Below are positions 27,450-34,912 of a stretch of DNA of 36,028 nt, in pieces. The stretch comes from an uncultured Chlorobiaceae bacterium. Lineage in GTDB: Bacteria; Bacteroidota; Chlorobiia; Chlorobiales; Chlorobiaceae. The position numbers and the translations under genes were made by a program. Position 1 is the stretch's first letter; every line of letters begins with the position of its first letter. The notes below the pieces were generated by a model. That model searched no databases. It was given only the letters and a program-made list of their open reading frames with translations, and was not told the origin of the DNA. The stretch is taken from contig CAILXB010000141.1 in the NCBI GenBank assembly GCA_903838025.1, positions 1 to 36,028 of the forward strand, read 5' to 3'.

Positions 27450-27959
27450 ATGAAGCATGAAAAACAATTTTTTTCCTTGTCATTTGTTGCAATCCTGATC
27501 ACCATTGCCCTCGGAGCAAGCCATCCCAATCCGCATTTTTCAGGAATCGCTACACCCTATAACCCGCTGTACAGCTCAGCCGAGGCTGCTTTACGCCCCA
27601 CTCTCCTTACGAGAGCGCTCCCTCGTACACACAAAAAAGCTCGCGTAACCGAAGGCAGAGCATCCTTTTACGCCGACCAGTTTCACGGCCGCAAAACAGC
27701 AAGCGGTGAAACCTTTAACCGTGAAAAGCTGACCGCAGCTCACCCATTCCTGCCTTTCGGTACCTGGGTAAGAGTGACCAATCTGCGAAACGGAAAAGAT
27801 GTCATTGTGCGCATCAACGACCGGGGTCCATTTGTTAAAGGAAGAATCATCGACTTATCGAGAGGCGCAGCAAAAGAGATCGGGCTTACACAAGCCGGTA
27901 CAGCGCGGGTAAAACTCGAAGCACTCAGTTCAGGCAAGTCAGCTTTTATCGCTGGCTGA
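27450..27959 (+). CDS. rlpA: RlpA-like septal-ring lytic transglycosylase, copy 1
   Basis: A 169-residue protein: signal peptide or membrane anchor ([17 protein letters not shown]), a 40-residue linker, then a double-psi beta-barrel domain from about residue 68. RlpA motifs are complete: [62 protein letters not shown]. The Glu in SGE and the Asp in NDRGPF correspond to catalytic acids of RlpA, which cleaves peptide-free glycan strands during cell separation. There is no SPOR domain at the C-terminus, so it would not be targeted to septa in the usual way. A paralogue follows 86 bases downstream. The start ATG at 27450 lacks a clear ribosome site. Confidence 0.9.
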
Positions 27960-28045: not shown

Positions 28046-28570
28046 ATGACAAAAAAAAACCTGTCGCTGCCCGGAACAGTACTTCGGACACTCTTTGCAA
28101 TAACGCTCTGTGCCACACTGAACCAGGGTAGCCTTCACGCAGAAGAGAGTACGGAACTCCCCAATCCTGCCACGTCAGGCATGCAGTGGTTTCCCGAAAA
28201 TAGCGGAGCAAATCCAGCTTCGTCAACAGGCGCACAAGCAATGCTTCCGGCGACCAGCGCTCTTGTCGCCGAAGGCAAAGCCTCATACTACGCTGGAAAG
28301 TTTCAGGGCAGAAAAACAGCCAACGGCGAATACTTCAGCCTCAGCCACTTCACGGCCGCACACCGCACCCTTCCTTTCGGTACCACGGTCAAGGTTATCA
28401 ATCTTGAAAACGGGAAAACTGTTATGGTACGCATTAACGACCGGGGCCCTTTCCGGCACGGAAGAATCATCGATGTTTCGCAAGCGGCAGCCAGAGTGAT
28501 CGGGCTTGTCGGAAGTGGAGTTGCCAATGTCCGCATTGAGGCATACCAGGAAAGTACTTCCGTCTTGTAA
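28046..28570 (+). CDS. rlpA: RlpA-like septal-ring lytic transglycosylase, copy 2
   Basis: A 174-residue protein with a Sec signal peptide (cleavage near residue 32, LHA-E), a Pro/Ser-rich linker and a double-psi beta-barrel very like copy 1. Motifs: [23 protein letters not shown], then [29 protein letters not shown]. The acidic residues matching RlpA catalysis are kept (NGE and NDRGPF). It again lacks a SPOR domain. Tandem position and the shared layout suggest local duplication, with strong divergence in the linker and signal peptide. It converges on dsbD. The only structure in the gap is a small hairpin (GCCACA/TGTGGC, 28589-28606) without a T tract. Confidence 0.9.
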
Positions 28571-28631: not shown

Positions 28632-30509
28632 CTACTTGCCCGTTACAAGCTTGCTGACATGGTCAAAAAAAGCACGAGCTTCAAGAACGCCCACGACCCG
28701 GCTTCCAGCAATCTCTTTTCCTGTCGTGTCAAAAAAGATCATTCCTGGAGGGCCGAAGAGGCCGAAACGCTTCATGAGTGCACGATCATCCTCACTGTTG
28801 GCGGTCACATCGACCTGCAGCAGCGTCAGCCCCCCAAGTTGCTCAATCACCTTGGGGTCATGAAAGGTAAAGCGATCCATCTCCTTACAGGCAACACACC
28901 AGTCGGCATAAAAATCGAGCATGACCGGTTTTTTTGCGGAAACTAACGCCTGGTCGAGCTCGGCTACTGTCCGGATACGGGTAAAATGGACTCCCTTCTC
29001 CTCTCCCTGGCTGACTGTCGATGCCCCGCGAACCGTCGAAAGCGGCTCAAACACATTGGTACCACCCGCCGCAGCCCCCACAAGCTCAAGTAACCCGGCA
29101 ACAAAAAGAACCAAACCAAGGGTTTTGCCAAAACGAAGCGCAATGGTTGGTTTGGCCGTTGACGTATCAAAAACGCCAAGAAAAACCGAGCAGAGAATGG
29201 CGAAGGCACCCCAAAAAAGCATCATTGCAGGAGCTGAAAGAATTGGCGAAACCATCCAGATAGCAACGGCTATCAACAGAAGCCCAAACACATACTTCAC
29301 ACCAATCATCCAGGCTCCAGCCTTGGGCAGCAAACTACCTGCTGAAAGCCCGACAAGCAGCAGCGGCAGACTCATCCCCATAGCCATCGAAAAGAGGGCA
29401 AGACCACCAAGAAGTACGTCACGCGTCTGGCTGATATAGACCAGGGTTCCGGCAAGCGGCGCAGCAACACATGGACCCACAATAAGCGCCGACAGGGCTC
29501 CCATAAAAAAGACCCCGGCAAAACGACCACGCTTCAAACCACCGGAAGCCTTGCCCAACTTGCTTTGCAGGGAAGTTGGCAACTGCAACTGATAAACATC
29601 GAACATGGAAAGTGAGAGCAGCAGAAGCAGCAACGCAAAGAGTACCAGAACCCATGGTTTTTGCAGGGCTCCAGCCAGCCCTTCACCCGCAAGACCGGCA
29701 GCAACACCAAGTGAGGTATAGACTAACGCCATCCCAAGGCAATAGGCGAGCGCCATCAAAAAACTACGACGACGGGTAACAACACCCTCGCCCACAATGA
29801 TCGAAGAGAGAATCGGAACCATCGGCAAAACGCAAGGGGTAAACGACAGAAGCAGACCGAATGCAAGAAAGGCAAGGGAGATTTTCCATAAACTTCCCCC
29901 TGCAAGAGTGGCTGTTGCCAGAGAGAGATCTCCATCCGTTTTGCTCTCTTTAACAAGAGGTGAAGCCTCTGCATGTGCTGCAACTGGCTGACGACTGATA
30001 ACTGACGACGGAGAACTGATAACTGACGACGGAGAACTGATGACTGACGACTGACGGCTGACGGCCGACGGCTGAAGATTAAACGTAAAGCTCTTCGTGA
30101 TAGGCGCATAACAGAGTCCGTCCTCTGCACACCCCTGGTATCCGACTATCAACGTAAAGGGAGCTGCCCCCTTGGTAATGGGAAGTACGACCGTAAGCCT
30201 GTCGTGATAGATATCGATCTTTTCGTTGGTTGTTAAATCAGTAATGGTAATGCCTTTTGGGAGCACAGGTACCTTAAAAGGAGCCTTTCCACTTTTGACG
30301 CCGACAGTAATCTTGTCGCGATAAAGTTTATAGCCTTTCGCTATTTCCCAATGCAGGGTTACTGAATTCTGGCTGGTCACATTGGCCTTAAGCTTGAAAG
30401 CCTGTTCAGGGTCAAGAAATTCTGCGGCAAACAGTGTACTCACCCTGAAAAAAAGGGCCAAAACAATACCGGTCACAATGACCGCAAACCGTGGGGATGG
30501 CCTATGCAT
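28632..30509 (-). CDS. dsbD: Thiol:disulfide interchange protein DsbD
   Basis: A 625-residue three-part protein. After a signal peptide (residues 1-28) comes the periplasmic immunoglobulin-like domain with the Cys pair of GCAEDGLCYAP (Cys127, Cys133). Next is an eight-helix membrane domain (LLSFTPCVLPMVPI and IVGPCVAAPLAGT carry its two Cys), then a C-terminal thioredoxin-like domain with YADWCVACKEMD. DsbD moves electrons from cytoplasmic thioredoxin to periplasmic thiol proteins such as TlpA-like ones. The linker between the first two parts (residues 151-174) is made of a 7-residue tandem repeat, SSVISSP, created by a DNA repeat. It is the last gene of the six-gene leftward TlpA/DUF3570/ApbE block, 47 bases after apbE, and is the likely electron source for the TlpA-like protein. 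Confidence 0.95.
   Translation of the reverse strand: MHRPSPRFAVIVTGIVLALFFRVSTLFAAEFLDPEQAFKLKANVTSQNSVTLHWEIAKGYKLYRDKITVGVKSGKAPFKVPVLPKGITITDLTTNEKIDIYHDRLTVVLPITKGAAPFTLIVGYQGCAEDGLCYAPITKSFTFNLQPSAVSRQSSVISSPSSVISSPSSVISRQPVAAHAEASPLVKESKTDGDLSLATATLAGGSLWKISLAFLAFGLLLSFTPCVLPMVPILSSIIVGEGVVTRRRSFLMALAYCLGMALVYTSLGVAAGLAGEGLAGALQKPWVLVLFALLLLLLSLSMFDVYQLQLPTSLQSKLGKASGGLKRGRFAGVFFMGALSALIVGPCVAAPLAGTLVYISQTRDVLLGGLALFSMAMGMSLPLLLVGLSAGSLLPKAGAWMIGVKYVFGLLLIAVAIWMVSPILSAPAMMLFWGAFAILCSVFLGVFDTSTAKPTIALRFGKTLGLVLFVAGLLELVGAAAGGTNVFEPLSTVRGASTVSQGEEKGVHFTRIRTVAELDQALVSAKKPVMLDFYADWCVACKEMDRFTFHDPKVIEQLGGLTLLQVDVTANSEDDRALMKRFGLFGPPGMIFFDTTGKEIAGSRVVGVLEARAFFDHVSKLVTGK
29985..30074. repeat. 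21-base tandem repeat inside dsbD
   Basis: Units AACTGATAACTGACGACGGAG recur, with degenerate copies on both sides (ACTGATGACTGACGACTGACGG). The 21-base period keeps the dsbD frame and encodes SSVISSP repeats in the periplasmic linker. The core matches the intergenic repeat at 23348-23389. Confidence 0.85.
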
Positions 30510-30556
30510 AAAAATTTTACAAAAAAGGTTATTGAAATATTTTTTTTAAAATCGCG

Positions 30557-31447
30557 CTATACATCCTTGTGATAGATTTGACCAAGCCGATCGACCGCGA
30601 AATACCCAAACCCTGACTCCTGCAAAAACCCGAGTCCATCAGCCTCTTTTAACATTGCTATGGTCGTATGACTCCCTGCGGTGACCGCTAAAGGAGCTAT
30701 AACCGTTACTGATCTCCAATGTGCTACCGGATAACCGGAACGAGGATGGATGATGTGGCAGTACCGTCTGCCATCAACTTCAAAATAACGCTCATAATCC
30801 CCGCTTGTCGCCAAAGCCCCGGTAAAAAGAGGCAGAGAGGCAATCGTACGCTCCCTGTTGCGGGGATCCTGAATCCCGATCATCCATGGGCTACCGTCTG
30901 GTTTAGGGCCTATAACCCTTATATCACCAGCAAGGTTGACATATCCATGCCTCACCCCTTTACCGTGCATAATCGAGGCCGCCCGGTCAGCCGCATACTC
31001 TTTGCCAAACCCGCCAAAATCAAACTCCATACCTGCCAGAGGCAGCCGAACTTCCTTACCATGACGTTCAACACGCTTCCAGCCAATCAAAGCCAGAATC
31101 GGAGCCAACGTTTCCTCGTCAGGCACAACACCACTTCTGAAATCCCAAGCCCGCCTCAAAACACCAGCCGTGATATCAAAAAGCCCACCACTACTCGAAT
31201 AAAGAATATCAGCATACTTAAAAAGAGCAAGGGTCTCATCATCGCACTTCACACCTTCAACTCCGGCAACTGCATTGATTCTCGAAACGATGCTCTCCGA
31301 CCGATAACGGGAGTACTTTCGCTCTATTCTCGACACCTCCTCTATGGCAAGTGCGGCAATCGACTGAGCCTCTGTATTGCTTGTGGAAACAAGTACCACC
31401 TCACACCCGCTCCCCATGGCCTGAAACCCAAAACAAAAAGTATCCAT
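30557..31447 (-). CDS. apbE: ApbE-family FAD:protein FMN transferase
   Basis: A 296-residue flavin transferase. Family motifs: FQAMGSGCEVVL at the start, SRYRSESIVSRIN, GGLFDITAGVLRRAWDF, FDFGGFGKEYAADRAA and YVNLAGDIRVIG. ApbE attaches FMN through a phosphoester to Thr or Ser in D-x-x-[ST]-G-A-[ST] motifs of target proteins. Two oddities: there is no signal peptide (an in-frame stop lies a few codons upstream of the ATG), so it should be cytoplasmic, unlike most bacterial ApbE. The C-terminal metal motif, normally T-A-D-x-x-x-T, reads TAGSHTT, with Gly at the usual metal-binding Asp. Its neighbours are DUF3570, DUF4266 and TlpA genes upstream and dsbD downstream. The DUF3570 protein offers candidate target motifs. 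Confidence 0.9.
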   Translation of the reverse strand: MDTFCFGFQAMGSGCEVVLVSTSNTEAQSIAALAIEEVSRIERKYSRYRSESIVSRINAVAGVEGVKCDDETLALFKYADILYSSSGGLFDITAGVLRRAWDFRSGVVPDEETLAPILALIGWKRVERHGKEVRLPLAGMEFDFGGFGKEYAADRAASIMHGKGVRHGYVNLAGDIRVIGPKPDGSPWMIGIQDPRNRERTIASLPLFTGALATSGDYERYFEVDGRRYCHIIHPRSGYPVAHWRSVTVIAPLAVTAGSHTTIAMLKEADGLGFLQESGFGYFAVDRLGQIYHKDV

Positions 31448-31633
31448 GTGGCTATAATTTTAATCCTGTTACTTATTTTAGACCGCTTTCAACCATCAGA
31501 CTACCCTGCCGAACGCAGCAGCCTAAGCACCATTTTTTACGGGAAACCCGGACAGGTGATAAGCCGAAGAGCCATCGGCCATTATTGCGTCAACGTGTTC
31601 AAACAGAAAGCAGTATCCCGACGGGTTGATGAA

Positions 31634-32482
31634 TCAAAACTCAAGCCCTACCCTGAGACCATACTCTGTGGAGTTGTTTTGAGGCTCAATAATACCGCTT
31701 GAACCATTAACAACCAGCGCGGAAGTTTCCTTATCCCTTGCCAGTTCTGAAGTGTTAATATTCCAATATCTGACAAACGGCTCAACTGAAAGAAAGGTAC
31801 CCTTGCCAATATTTTTGCTGACTTTAACCGATGCTCTCAAGCCATATCCACCACTCTGATGATTCGTAAACGGAGCAAAAGGGGTGTAATGAGAAGTCAT
31901 CTGGGTTCCAGACCACAAATAATCATACTCAAAGGAACCATCAAGAGTCCATCCATCCTTTAAACTGGTCGATATTTCAACACCGACGGGAGAGTAATAG
32001 TAATTTGACTGCCTGTCGTACCCTAAGCTTCCCGTTGTTGATGTCATTCCATAAGAATTATCAGTCAATCTCCGATACCCAAACCCCAAATATTGTACAA
32101 TAACAACTGAGTCTTTTTCTACAATGTTTTGGCCAAACAGAACTCTTGTTTCAAAAAAAGAATCAGGAACGGTCTGCATCGTGCCCGTACGTGAAGAGGT
32201 ATAGTCAACCGAGCCCCATGCAGCATCAGCTTCAGTTCTGAACTTATCGAAAAGACCAAAAACACGCCCATGCAGAGAGTACGCAGCCGAAACCCCATAC
32301 AGAACACCTGCGTTCTGCATATATCCCGGTTCCTTATAGGTGAGGTGCAACAAGGAAGGTGCAATCTCAAAAGAGCTCTTCTGATCGGCCGTGGCTGCAC
32401 CAAGAGTGCCTGCACCAAAAAAGTGCAGAGACACAGCACACACAACAACTTTGCATATCGAAGCTTTCACTTTTTCCCCCAT
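31634..32482 (-). CDS. Outer-membrane beta-barrel protein of unknown family
   Basis: A 282-residue protein with a Sec signal peptide (cleavage near residue 31, LGA-A). The mature part alternates short amphipathic strands, many ending in aromatic residues (DGWTLDGSFEYDYLW, FLSVEPFVRYWNI), and ends in a C-terminal Phe (YGLRVGLEF), the standard signal for outer-membrane insertion. Around 10-12 strands are plausible. I do not recognise the family. It lies between the DUF3570 and ApbE genes, on the same strand, with gaps of 119 and 186 bases, wide enough for separate promoters. It could be a partner barrel of the DUF3570 protein or an unrelated porin. Confidence 0.82.
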   Translation of the reverse strand: MGEKVKASICKVVVCAVSLHFFGAGTLGAATADQKSSFEIAPSLLHLTYKEPGYMQNAGVLYGVSAAYSLHGRVFGLFDKFRTEADAAWGSVDYTSSRTGTMQTVPDSFFETRVLFGQNIVEKDSVVIVQYLGFGYRRLTDNSYGMTSTTGSLGYDRQSNYYYSPVGVEISTSLKDGWTLDGSFEYDYLWSGTQMTSHYTPFAPFTNHQSGGYGLRASVKVSKNIGKGTFLSVEPFVRYWNINTSELARDKETSALVVNGSSGIIEPQNNSTEYGLRVGLEF

Positions 32483-32517
32483 TTACTGTTTAGAAAAACT
32501 CTTGCTGGCAGCAAACA

Positions 32518-32588
32518 CTCTGAAGAGGTTCACTTCGCCCGGTAGAACAAGATAGCCCGAATTATTACCAAGCGAAGTGAAAACAGAG
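32518..32588 (-). other. Long imperfect hairpin between the two beta-barrel genes
   Basis: TTCACTTCGC (32529-32538) pairs perfectly with GCGAAGTGAA (32572-32581), an outer CTCTG/CAGAG pair encloses it, and GGTA/TACC lie inside. It falls exactly in the 119-base gap between the DUF3570 stop and the next gene's start. There is no T tract, so it may be an mRNA stabiliser or attenuator that sets different expression levels. It could also be a dispersed repeat. Confidence 0.55.
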
Positions 32589-32601
32589 TCCTCATCCTAA
32601 G

Positions 32602-33936
32602 CTAAAACTCTCTGGAGATGCCCAGTTGAATACTTCTCGCAGAAAACGATGCAAGTGCAGTGTCGGCATGACCGCTCAAAGCCCAATCACTCCGCTGCTC
32701 ATACATCTCGACCTTTACATCAACCAGCCAGTCTGGATTCAACTGTTTGCTCACTTTCAACCCTACTGTCAGAGCCCCAAACGCTGAAAGTCGCTGATCC
32801 TCACTATAGTAGACTGCGCTGGCAGACGGAGTAGTCACAACCGACGGATTAGCTTTTTCAGCGGCACTGGTAGCAACGTAGAAATCGGCCTCCGTTTGAG
32901 TGTAGATGCGCAAAAGAGGCGCAACAGTCCAGCCATGCTTCAGCGGCTGCACGTACTCACCCTCAAGGGTGTGTGCACGTATACCGAAGGTGTCGGTATA
33001 GTAACGGTAGGAGGTGCGTGACGTCCCGTCAGAACCGTCGAAATGGTGATTCCACTTCCCCATGACCGTCGTATTATTACGCTTGCCTGGCCTGTTGTCA
33101 TAGTATTTGTAAGGATCCGAGTAGTAACCCTCTCCTTTACTGTACCCTATGTTAAGCTGAACGATGTCATTCTTCGACAGCACCCTTGTTACGCCGAACA
33201 ACGCTGCATTAATATCTTTTTTGGAGGTGACATTCGGCTGCGTCTTGGGTGTAATCGTATCATTGGTAATACTACCGCCAAGCGTAAAGGTGGTATTTTT
33301 ATCCTCGGTAGAGAGGCTGCCCTGCAAAGAGTAACTTTTTGAGAGATAGTCGGACTCCTTTGAGTAACTCGTTCCCACAGCAACATTACCACTTGAAAAA
33401 TAATGGGTAAGCTGTACGTCAGCAACGTCGCGGGTGTCTTTCATGTGGGTCAGGCCAGACGTGTGGTAGGTCGGAGATGCACCTGAAACCGAATCATGGA
33501 TATAGGTGGTTGCAATAGACCACTTTCCGGCAATCGGCGCCATCGCCATAATCGAATAGGCATTGACACTGATGCGATCCTGGGCAGATGACCCTGTAGT
33601 CGAAGAGACGGAAGAGGGCGTAACAACAGATGGCGTTGCTGTTGTCAAAGTGGAGGCTCCGGAAACAAGATCGACCCATACAGCGTTTTCTTTTTTACTA
33701 CCAGACTCCTTCTCAATTTTGTCCTCAACCTCTTTACTCTCACTTACAGAGCCTGAAGAGGAGGAGGAGCTGCCCAACGCGCCCTGACGCTCCGAATAAT
33801 TAAGATATTTAAAACTGATAATGCCTCGCTCCGGCGCCACATCTGCAGAAGCAAACTGCACAGAGGGCAGCATCATGGCCGCAGTGGCGAGAGCAGTCCC
33901 AAGAAGGGTTGACCTTTTTTTACTCTTTAATCTCAT
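32602..33936 (-). CDS. DUF3570-family outer-membrane beta-barrel with flavinylation-like motifs
   Basis: A 444-residue protein. A signal peptide (cleavage near residue 31, ASA-D) precedes GIISFKYLNYSERQ, a Ser/Glu/Lys-rich stretch, and then a roughly 16-strand-like barrel region of alternating strands ending in QLGISREF (C-terminal Phe). I recognise it as DUF3570 from the opening strand, the SGAS motif and its company (DUF4266, TlpA-like, ApbE). Two motifs stand out, DLVSGAST at residues 89-96 and DSVSGASP at 148-155. Both fit D-x-x-S-G-A-S, the pattern ApbE modifies with FMN. Whether they are modified is untested. It lies 24 bases downstream of the DUF4266 gene, so the two are surely co-transcribed. 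Confidence 0.85.
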   Translation of the reverse strand: MRLKSKKRSTLLGTALATAAMMLPSVQFASADVAPERGIISFKYLNYSERQGALGSSSSSSGSVSESKEVEDKIEKESGSKKENAVWVDLVSGASTLTTATPSVVTPSSVSSTTGSSAQDRISVNAYSIMAMAPIAGKWSIATTYIHDSVSGASPTYHTSGLTHMKDTRDVADVQLTHYFSSGNVAVGTSYSKESDYLSKSYSLQGSLSTEDKNTTFTLGGSITNDTITPKTQPNVTSKKDINAALFGVTRVLSKNDIVQLNIGYSKGEGYYSDPYKYYDNRPGKRNNTTVMGKWNHHFDGSDGTSRTSYRYYTDTFGIRAHTLEGEYVQPLKHGWTVAPLLRIYTQTEADFYVATSAAEKANPSVVTTPSASAVYYSEDQRLSAFGALTVGLKVSKQLNPDWLVDVKVEMYEQRSDWALSGHADTALASFSARSIQLGISREF

Positions 33937-33960
33937 AGTGGGGGTAAGTTAAAATTCAGG

Positions 33961-34203
33961 TTAATTGCATCCGCAGCCACCGCCGCCAACACCGGCACCG
34001 CCGGACGCGGCCTCTGTACTGCTGTAGATATGCTCGGTGTAACCAGTGTCGAGCTTATCGCCACCAAAGGTCATTTCAGGTCTTGCCAAAGTCCCTTTTT
34101 CCCATGGCTGGACTGCCGTACCCATCGAACAGGCCGACAAGCCAAGAGCAAGCAACAGCAAAAGAGCCTGAAGCGATTTTTGAAGCTGGTTTTTTTTCAT
34201 CAT
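33961..34203 (-). CDS. DUF4266-family small lipoprotein with Gly/Cys tail
   Basis: An 80-residue protein. The signal peptide ends in a lipobox, LGLSACSMG (Cys about residue 25), so it is lipid-anchored. The mature part is only about 55 residues: VQPWEKGTLARPEMTF is the recognisable DUF4266 core. The C-terminus is SGGAGVGGGGCGCN, a Gly-rich tail ending with two Cys. Such a C-x-C tail could bind metal, form a disulfide handled by the neighbouring thioredoxin, or be modified. The gene overlaps the TlpA-like gene by 4 bases (ATGA) and is followed by DUF3570 after 24 bases. The function is unknown; the conserved company suggests it is an accessory of the DUF3570 barrel. Confidence 0.85.
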   Translation of the reverse strand: MMKKNQLQKSLQALLLLLALGLSACSMGTAVQPWEKGTLARPEMTFGGDKLDTGYTEHIYSSTEAASGGAGVGGGGCGCN

Positions 34204-34715
34204 TTTTTTGCCTCCAATGCTGCGTTGATCTCTTGTTCAAGTTTTTCGCTATCAGCCTCTTTAAACCCCAGGTGCTGAAAAATAATTTTGCCATCCCTGC
34301 CCACAAGAAAACTGGTAGGCATACCCTTTACTCCGTAACTCTGGGGTGTCACACCTTTAGAGTCAAAAGCGACAGTAAAGTGGGCCGGAGTCTGCGCCAA
34401 AAACTTCCGGGCATCCTCGCTTTTACCATCAAGATTGATCCCGATAATCTTCAACCCCTTCTCTCTGTACTTCTCCTGCATGGTGTTCATCCATCCAAAC
34501 GACTGCTTGCAGGGGCCGCACCACGACGCCCAGAAATCGACATAAACAACCGAACCGGCAGCGCCCGAAAGCTCCACCGTACCCTGCGCTCCCGGCAGGC
34601 TGAAATCGGGCGCTTTGCTGCCGACCTCAAGCGCATAAGAGGTGCCATTGCAACTCAAATACAAAAGGGAGGCAAAAAGAAGCGTCCTGAACGTTTTCCT
34701 CTGAAAAGTCACCAT
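34200..34715 (-). CDS. TlpA-like periplasmic thioredoxin
   Basis: A 171-residue protein from the ATG at 34715 (MVTFQRKTFRTLLFASLLYLSC). It has an N-terminal signal or anchor, then a TlpA/ResA-type thioredoxin fold: VGSKAPDFSLPGAQG, VVYVDFWASWCGPCKQSF (active-site CxxC), GINLDGKSEDARKFL and a cis-Pro loop KGMPTSFLVGRDG. The longer track start at 34811 adds an unlikely basic leader. TlpA-like proteins reduce disulfides in the periplasm using electrons from DsbD, which is encoded at the end of the same block. It is the first gene of the block. Its likely client here is the Cys-tailed DUF4266 lipoprotein; this is inference from the 4-base overlap of the two genes. Confidence 0.9.
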   Translation of the reverse strand: MVTFQRKTFRTLLFASLLYLSCNGTSYALEVGSKAPDFSLPGAQGTVELSGAAGSVVYVDFWASWCGPCKQSFGWMNTMQEKYREKGLKIIGINLDGKSEDARKFLAQTPAHFTVAFDSKGVTPQSYGVKGMPTSFLVGRDGKIIFQHLGFKEADSEKLEQEINAALEAKK

Positions 34716-34912
34716 AGTTTGTAGGTTTTTGATTAGGAAAGGTAGCAGAGAAAACCCTTTTTCGCGATGTGCCCACAAGCGCAGCATCCACCAGCCGAAA
34801 GTTCTTTTCAACTCTCATTTTACAACATAAAACCTTAATAGACTATTAGCTGACGCTTAAAATTCACTTAAAAAGCAAGAGTTAAGCTGATAGAGAGGAT
34901 ATTGAGAGTAAA

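Follow-up and report, generated by a model that had tools for sequence, protein, structure and literature searches.

A DUF3570 protein with two predicted ApbE flavinylation sites beside a signal-less ApbE in an uncultured Chlorobiaceae bacterium

Results

Gene cluster around DUF3570

The window (the whole stretch of DNA that was analysed, 36,028 nucleotides of contig CAILXB010000141.1) contains a complete DsbD/TlpA-like/DUF4266/DUF3570/ApbE cluster, as identified with Pfam searches. The cluster occupies positions 28632-34811 of the minus strand and includes one additional gene for a small barrel protein, with the following members in order of transcription:

34200..34811, minus strand, TlpA/ResA-like exported thioredoxin with a WCGPC motif (Pfam Redoxin/AhpC-TSA; likely start ATG at 34715)
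33961..34203, minus strand, DUF4266 lipoprotein of 80 aa with an LSAC lipobox and a Gly-rich tail that ends in CGCN (PF14086, E = 1e-21)
32602..33936, minus strand, DUF3570 protein of 444 aa with a Sec-type signal peptide, predicted to form an outer-membrane beta-barrel of 16 strands and ending in Phe (F444)
31634..32482, minus strand, small outer-membrane beta-barrel protein between DUF3570 and apbE (weak OpcA/OMP_b-brl matches)
30557..31447, minus strand, ApbE, FAD:protein FMN transferase of 296 aa (PF02424, E = 1e-72), without a signal peptide, Glu150/Gly258 variant (KEYA ... AGS)
28632..30509, minus strand, DsbD, transmembrane thiol electron carrier flanked by redox domains at both termini (DsbD_TM, E = 4e-91; DsbD_N, E = 3e-26)

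The DUF3570 protein is a confident member of its family (PF12094, E = 6e-65, 220 bits against a cut-off of 25). The original prediction had described it as an exported protein three genes from apbE; the export and the shared cluster stand, while apbE lies two genes downstream, with only the small barrel gene between them. The OpcA and OMP_b-brl matches are weak for the window copy of this small barrel and pass the curated cut-off for its orthologues, and homologues of it adjoin DUF3570 genes of the upstream class (see below) at seven other loci (L015, L021, L034-L036, L089, and L090). The DUF4266 tail, HIYSSxEAASGGxGVGGGGCGCN, is near-invariant across the Chlorobi, and its Gly-rich arm ending in CxC could serve as a swinging redox arm. 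Beyond the cluster, two adjacent small exported proteins (27450-27959 and 28046-28570) that by eye resemble RlpA-type double-psi barrels are convergent with the end of dsbD.

Two candidate flavinylation motifs

Two segments of the DUF3570 protein had been proposed as ApbE sites from the sequence, and the open reading frame, both peptides, and their coordinates were recovered as claimed:

33649..33672, minus strand, flavinylation site 1, DLVSGAST, residues 89-96, predicted acceptor Ser95, in loop L1 (52-118), the secondary site in its upstream class
33472..33495, minus strand, flavinylation site 2, DSVSGASP, residues 148-155, predicted acceptor Ser154, at the end of strand 3 and start of loop L2

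Both match D-x-x-[S/T]-G-A-[S/T], the consensus that a recent review (PMC12052999) gives for recognition by ApbE, with the [S/T]GA[S/T] cores at residues 92-95 and 151-154. Two full motifs arise by chance at a frequency of about 1e-4 (mature sequence shuffled 20,000 times). Even the core is absent from every other main ORF (33 main ORFs of the window), which leaves no alternative candidate substrate of ApbE there and bears out the claim that no other exported protein of the block has such a clear match. The FMN_bind domain (PF04205), for its part, had no Pfam match in the DUF3570 protein.

Two conserved [S/T]GA[S/T] motifs have been reported previously in apbE-linked DUF3570 proteins by Meheust et al. 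2021 (PMC8238504), who described the cluster of DsbD, thioredoxin-like protein, DUF4266, DUF3570, and ApbE and proposed DsbD as the electron source. In that study the orthologous DUF3570 protein of Chlorobium luteolum was flavinylated by its cognate ApbE, seen as UV fluorescence upon co-expression, and the modification was abolished only when both serines were replaced by alanine (PMC8238504). The two systems share the Pfam family, the two [S/T]GA[S/T] sites, the gene set, and the bacterial family. The interpretation of the two motifs as ApbE sites is well supported, with covalent FMN predicted on Ser95 and Ser154 of the window protein. The motif finding rediscovers, independently and in another genome, what had already been published, and its novelty is low; new are the mobile second site, a two-residue swap in ApbE, the probable compartment of modification, and the topology of the barrel.

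Number and place of the sites among relatives

A family alignment had been suggested as a check on whether the motif at residues 148-155 is invariant, and among 83 distinct Chlorobi DUF3570 proteins this main site, Dxx[ST]GASP, was kept in all 83; the loss of conservation that would have spoken against the prediction was therefore not seen. Exactly one second site was present in 79 of the 83, located either upstream (26 proteins, including that of the window; 35-62 residues away) or downstream (53 proteins; 11-26 residues away) of the main site. None of the 83 possessed upstream and downstream second sites together, and stray matches elsewhere numbered only two. A tree of the DUF3570 region behind the sites requires three to four changes of class, forced by well-supported branches, and because of these forced changes the second site must have been relocated at least twice, with the total of two preserved.

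Outside of the Chlorobi, most Gammaproteobacteria carry the main site as D[ST]LTGA[ST]P, with no second strict site found, and Bacteroidota proteins usually show a looser pair, [ST]SAS together with SGAS or SSAS. In a set of Bacteroidota DUF3570 proteins, mostly encoded beside apbE (L054-L071), [ST]SAS replaces SGAS at the main site, which suggests a relaxed ApbE recognition motif in these proteins. Several Chlorobi loci (L072, L073, L074, L077, L078, L080, and L083) keep both sites, with apbE, DsbD, and DUF4266 absent from the fetched stretch.

Predicted fold and side of the sites

An AlphaFold model of the DUF3570 protein (med1fb078c59d; alignment of 19 sequences) is a 16-stranded barrel with a mean pLDDT of 73, rising to about 90 through most of the barrel. 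Foldseek and VIA-align returned full-length matches to FadL, OmpG, CymA, and porins in the same N-to-C direction. The model of a downstream-class relative (L037; pLDDT 84) has the same barrel, and its two sites occupy opposite arms of a single hairpin. Between the strands, turns of 2-4 residues and near-constant length alternate with loops that are variable and mostly longer, the turns at one side of the barrel and the loops at the other, and both Ser95 (loop L1) and Ser154 (start of loop L2) are on the long-loop side of the modelled barrel; the pLDDT of loop L1 is below 50 and Ser95 is placed only as within that loop. The even number of strands, the short turns versus long loops, and the C-terminal F444 predict an outer-membrane beta-barrel.

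As a general rule, barrels assembled by BAM have their termini and short turns in the periplasm. Since this rule would make the long-loop side the extracellular one, both sites are predicted to be extracellular-side. A concentration of conserved positions toward the extracellular end was considered as proof of the topology and set aside, as it holds for 16 invariant residues and is weak for the wider set (37 of the 50 top residues in the outer half versus 60% of positions, with no bias among strand residues).

An ApbE without a signal peptide

The window ApbE starts MDTFCFGFQAMG, and because an in-frame stop lies only four codons upstream of the ATG, the gene as read cannot encode a signal peptide or lipobox. 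Among 50 Chlorobi DUF3570-type ApbEs, none had a convincing signal peptide by inspection, and in 30 the frame is closed by a stop codon no more than 20 residues ahead of the catalytic core; a hidden upstream start was ruled out by close stop codons in most loci. Nine Rnf-type ApbEs of the same bacterial family, from genomes containing FMN_bind, have hydrophobic N-termini of the exported type, most with a lipobox, and the ApbEs of most Bacteroidota DUF3570 clusters have a clear signal peptide.

The genome of the window (329 contigs, 80% complete) contains one ApbE and one DUF3570, with no FMN_bind domain found, and DUF3570 is thus the only recognised ApbE substrate found in it. Across 86 Chlorobiaceae genomes, DUF3570 was present in 67 and FMN_bind in 11, and ApbE tracks these two kinds of substrate, occurring in 73 of the 77 genomes with either one versus two of the nine with neither. 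Two Chlorobi genomes (G040 and G209) possess an ApbE with no DUF3570 found, one of these near a contig end and the other with a large repetitive protein upstream. Additionally, at four loci (L151, L156, L157, and L158) apbE-dsbD pairs sit behind a very large repetitive protein and do not adjoin DUF3570, and some of the repeats hold SGAT or TGAT.

A coupled residue swap in ApbE

The window ApbE retains the catalytic segments ATSGDYERY (TSGDY) and HIIHPRSGY (HxxxPxxG) and has structure matches in the PDB (1vrm and 5mgy). Two positions depart from the classical enzyme in the alignment:

30998..31000, minus strand, ApbE Glu150 codon (Gly in the classical KGYA motif)
30674..30676, minus strand, ApbE Gly258 codon (Asp in the AD..T segment of classical ApbE)

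By motif, Gly258 corresponds to D280 of E. coli ApbE, a metal-1 ligand (PMC4767422). The metal-ligand Asp typical of ApbE is absent in the window protein, and as this residue is typical rather than family-defining, the protein was filed as an ApbE variant. Over 87 ApbEs, the changes from KGYA to KEYA and from AD..T to AG..T are strictly coupled (59 Glu/Gly, 28 Gly/Asp, and no mixtures), and the swap is common to the DUF3570-type ApbEs of Chlorobi and Gammaproteobacteria; carriers compared include the window (30557-31447), L097:3978-4898, and ApbE genes of the L001-L049 and L132-L158 set. The active-site carboxylate may have been functionally moved in the swapped enzymes.

One carrier, L097, is from a genome (G075) of the GTDB genus of the window that we take to be Chlorobium luteolum DSM 273. 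Its DUF3570 has sites at 75 and 119 in the upstream arrangement seen in the window, and its ApbE has the Glu/Gly swap. As the cognate C. luteolum ApbE is active (PMC8238504), ApbE probably tolerates the swap.

Discussion

Taking the sites, the operon, the missing signal peptide, and the barrel prediction from the sequence, we infer a compartment of modification, a surface position, an electron route, and an acceptor. The reading that we favor, with a probability of roughly 0.6, is a DUF3570 with two FMNs that is loaded in the cytosol, exported through Sec, and inserted by BAM, and that takes part in a thiol-to-flavin electron route. The signal-less ApbE would add both FMNs to the unfolded DUF3570 pre-protein in the cytosol, a compartment rich in FAD, and the flavinylated chain would then be exported through Sec and inserted by BAM into the outer membrane, so that both sites come to lie in the outer part of the barrel lumen or at the extracellular, long-loop end. 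Transfer of FMN before export is proposed because ApbE lacks a signal peptide, its substrate is an exported barrel, and the sites are predicted to end on the outer side. Short, SGAS-containing tags of seven residues suffice for ApbE (PMC12052999), and for that reason a chain that has yet to fold could plausibly be modified. Export through Tat, with the flavoprotein already folded, was rejected, as DUF3570 signal peptides are without a conserved twin-arginine motif. Electrons would pass from DsbD to the TlpA-like thioredoxin, the CGC tail of DUF4266, the DUF3570 flavins, and an acceptor located at the outer membrane or beyond it; counted against this route is the periplasmic position of the DUF4266 CxC tail versus flavins at the outer end. 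The most specific form of the proposal, in which a cytosolic transferase pre-loads the barrel with two FMNs before Sec, the flavins are at the surface of a haem-free thiol-to-flavin route across the outer membrane, and the variant ApbE has a moved active-site carboxylate, is tentative, and we would put it at somewhat below even odds.

Three known systems come closest. The cytosolic ApbE of Klebsiella pneumoniae (PMC12052999) is also without a signal peptide and flavinylates in the cytosol; its substrate, however, is a soluble fumarate reductase that stays cytosolic, whereas the window substrate carries a Sec signal and is predicted to form an outer-membrane barrel. Conduits of the MtrCAB type are likewise an outer-membrane barrel with redox cofactors, and MtrB (6r2q_B) is among the weak fold matches of DUF3570, but MtrCAB carries haems in place of the covalent flavins and thiols here, there is no sequence relation, and electron export in the window is a proposal. 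Relative to the C. luteolum study (PMC8238504), which treats the system as extracytosolic flavinylation in a text without a barrel or a cytosolic ApbE, the window differs in the barrel model, the signal-less swapped ApbE, the mobile second site, and the extra small barrel gene. The papers searched gave no report of the mobile second site, the barrel topology, or the signal-less ApbE of Chlorobi with its coupled residue swap. Searches of the open-access literature for DUF3570, DUF4266, and ApbE with Chlorobium returned nothing further, and no paper was found on passage of a flavinylated chain or of covalent adducts through Sec/SecYEG.

The standard published view would instead have flavinylation occur outside of the cytosol, with DUF3570 facing the periplasm and fed by DsbD, TlpA, and DUF4266, and with ApbE exported by an unrecognised route. 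It draws on the description of the cluster as extracytosolic (PMC8238504), on three partner proteins that all act in the periplasm, and on the signal peptides of most Bacteroidota ApbEs from DUF3570 clusters, and we consider it unlikely, if a serious contender, as the nearby stop leaves the Chlorobi ApbE no room for a signal peptide and both sites map to the long-loop side in the barrel model. An ApbE without a signal peptide that is satisfied by short SGAS-containing tags (PMC12052999) might alternatively serve another cytosolic target in vivo, with DUF3570 flavinylated only in vitro or on over-expression and its SGAS motifs structural. This is improbable, since a structural role would not predict a count of two that is kept while the second site shifts between two loops, and apbE tracks DUF3570 or FMN_bind over the 86 genomes. 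The richness of the protein in Ser, Thr, and Gly would be the basis for regarding the motifs as chance matches in a barrel of this composition, a reading that can hardly be sustained given the shuffle frequency, the invariance of the main site in 83 relatives, and the experimentally modified orthologue, whose Ser-to-Ala variants refute it at the level of the family (PMC8238504).

If ApbE acts before export, as in the reading we favor, then Sec passes flavinylated chains and a periplasmic supply of FAD is unnecessary, and flavins could be placed outside the outer membrane, out of reach of a periplasmic enzyme. For green sulfur bacteria and Gammaproteobacteria, the DsbD/DUF4266/DUF3570 cluster would, if this is true, become a candidate for a haem-free electron route at the outer membrane.
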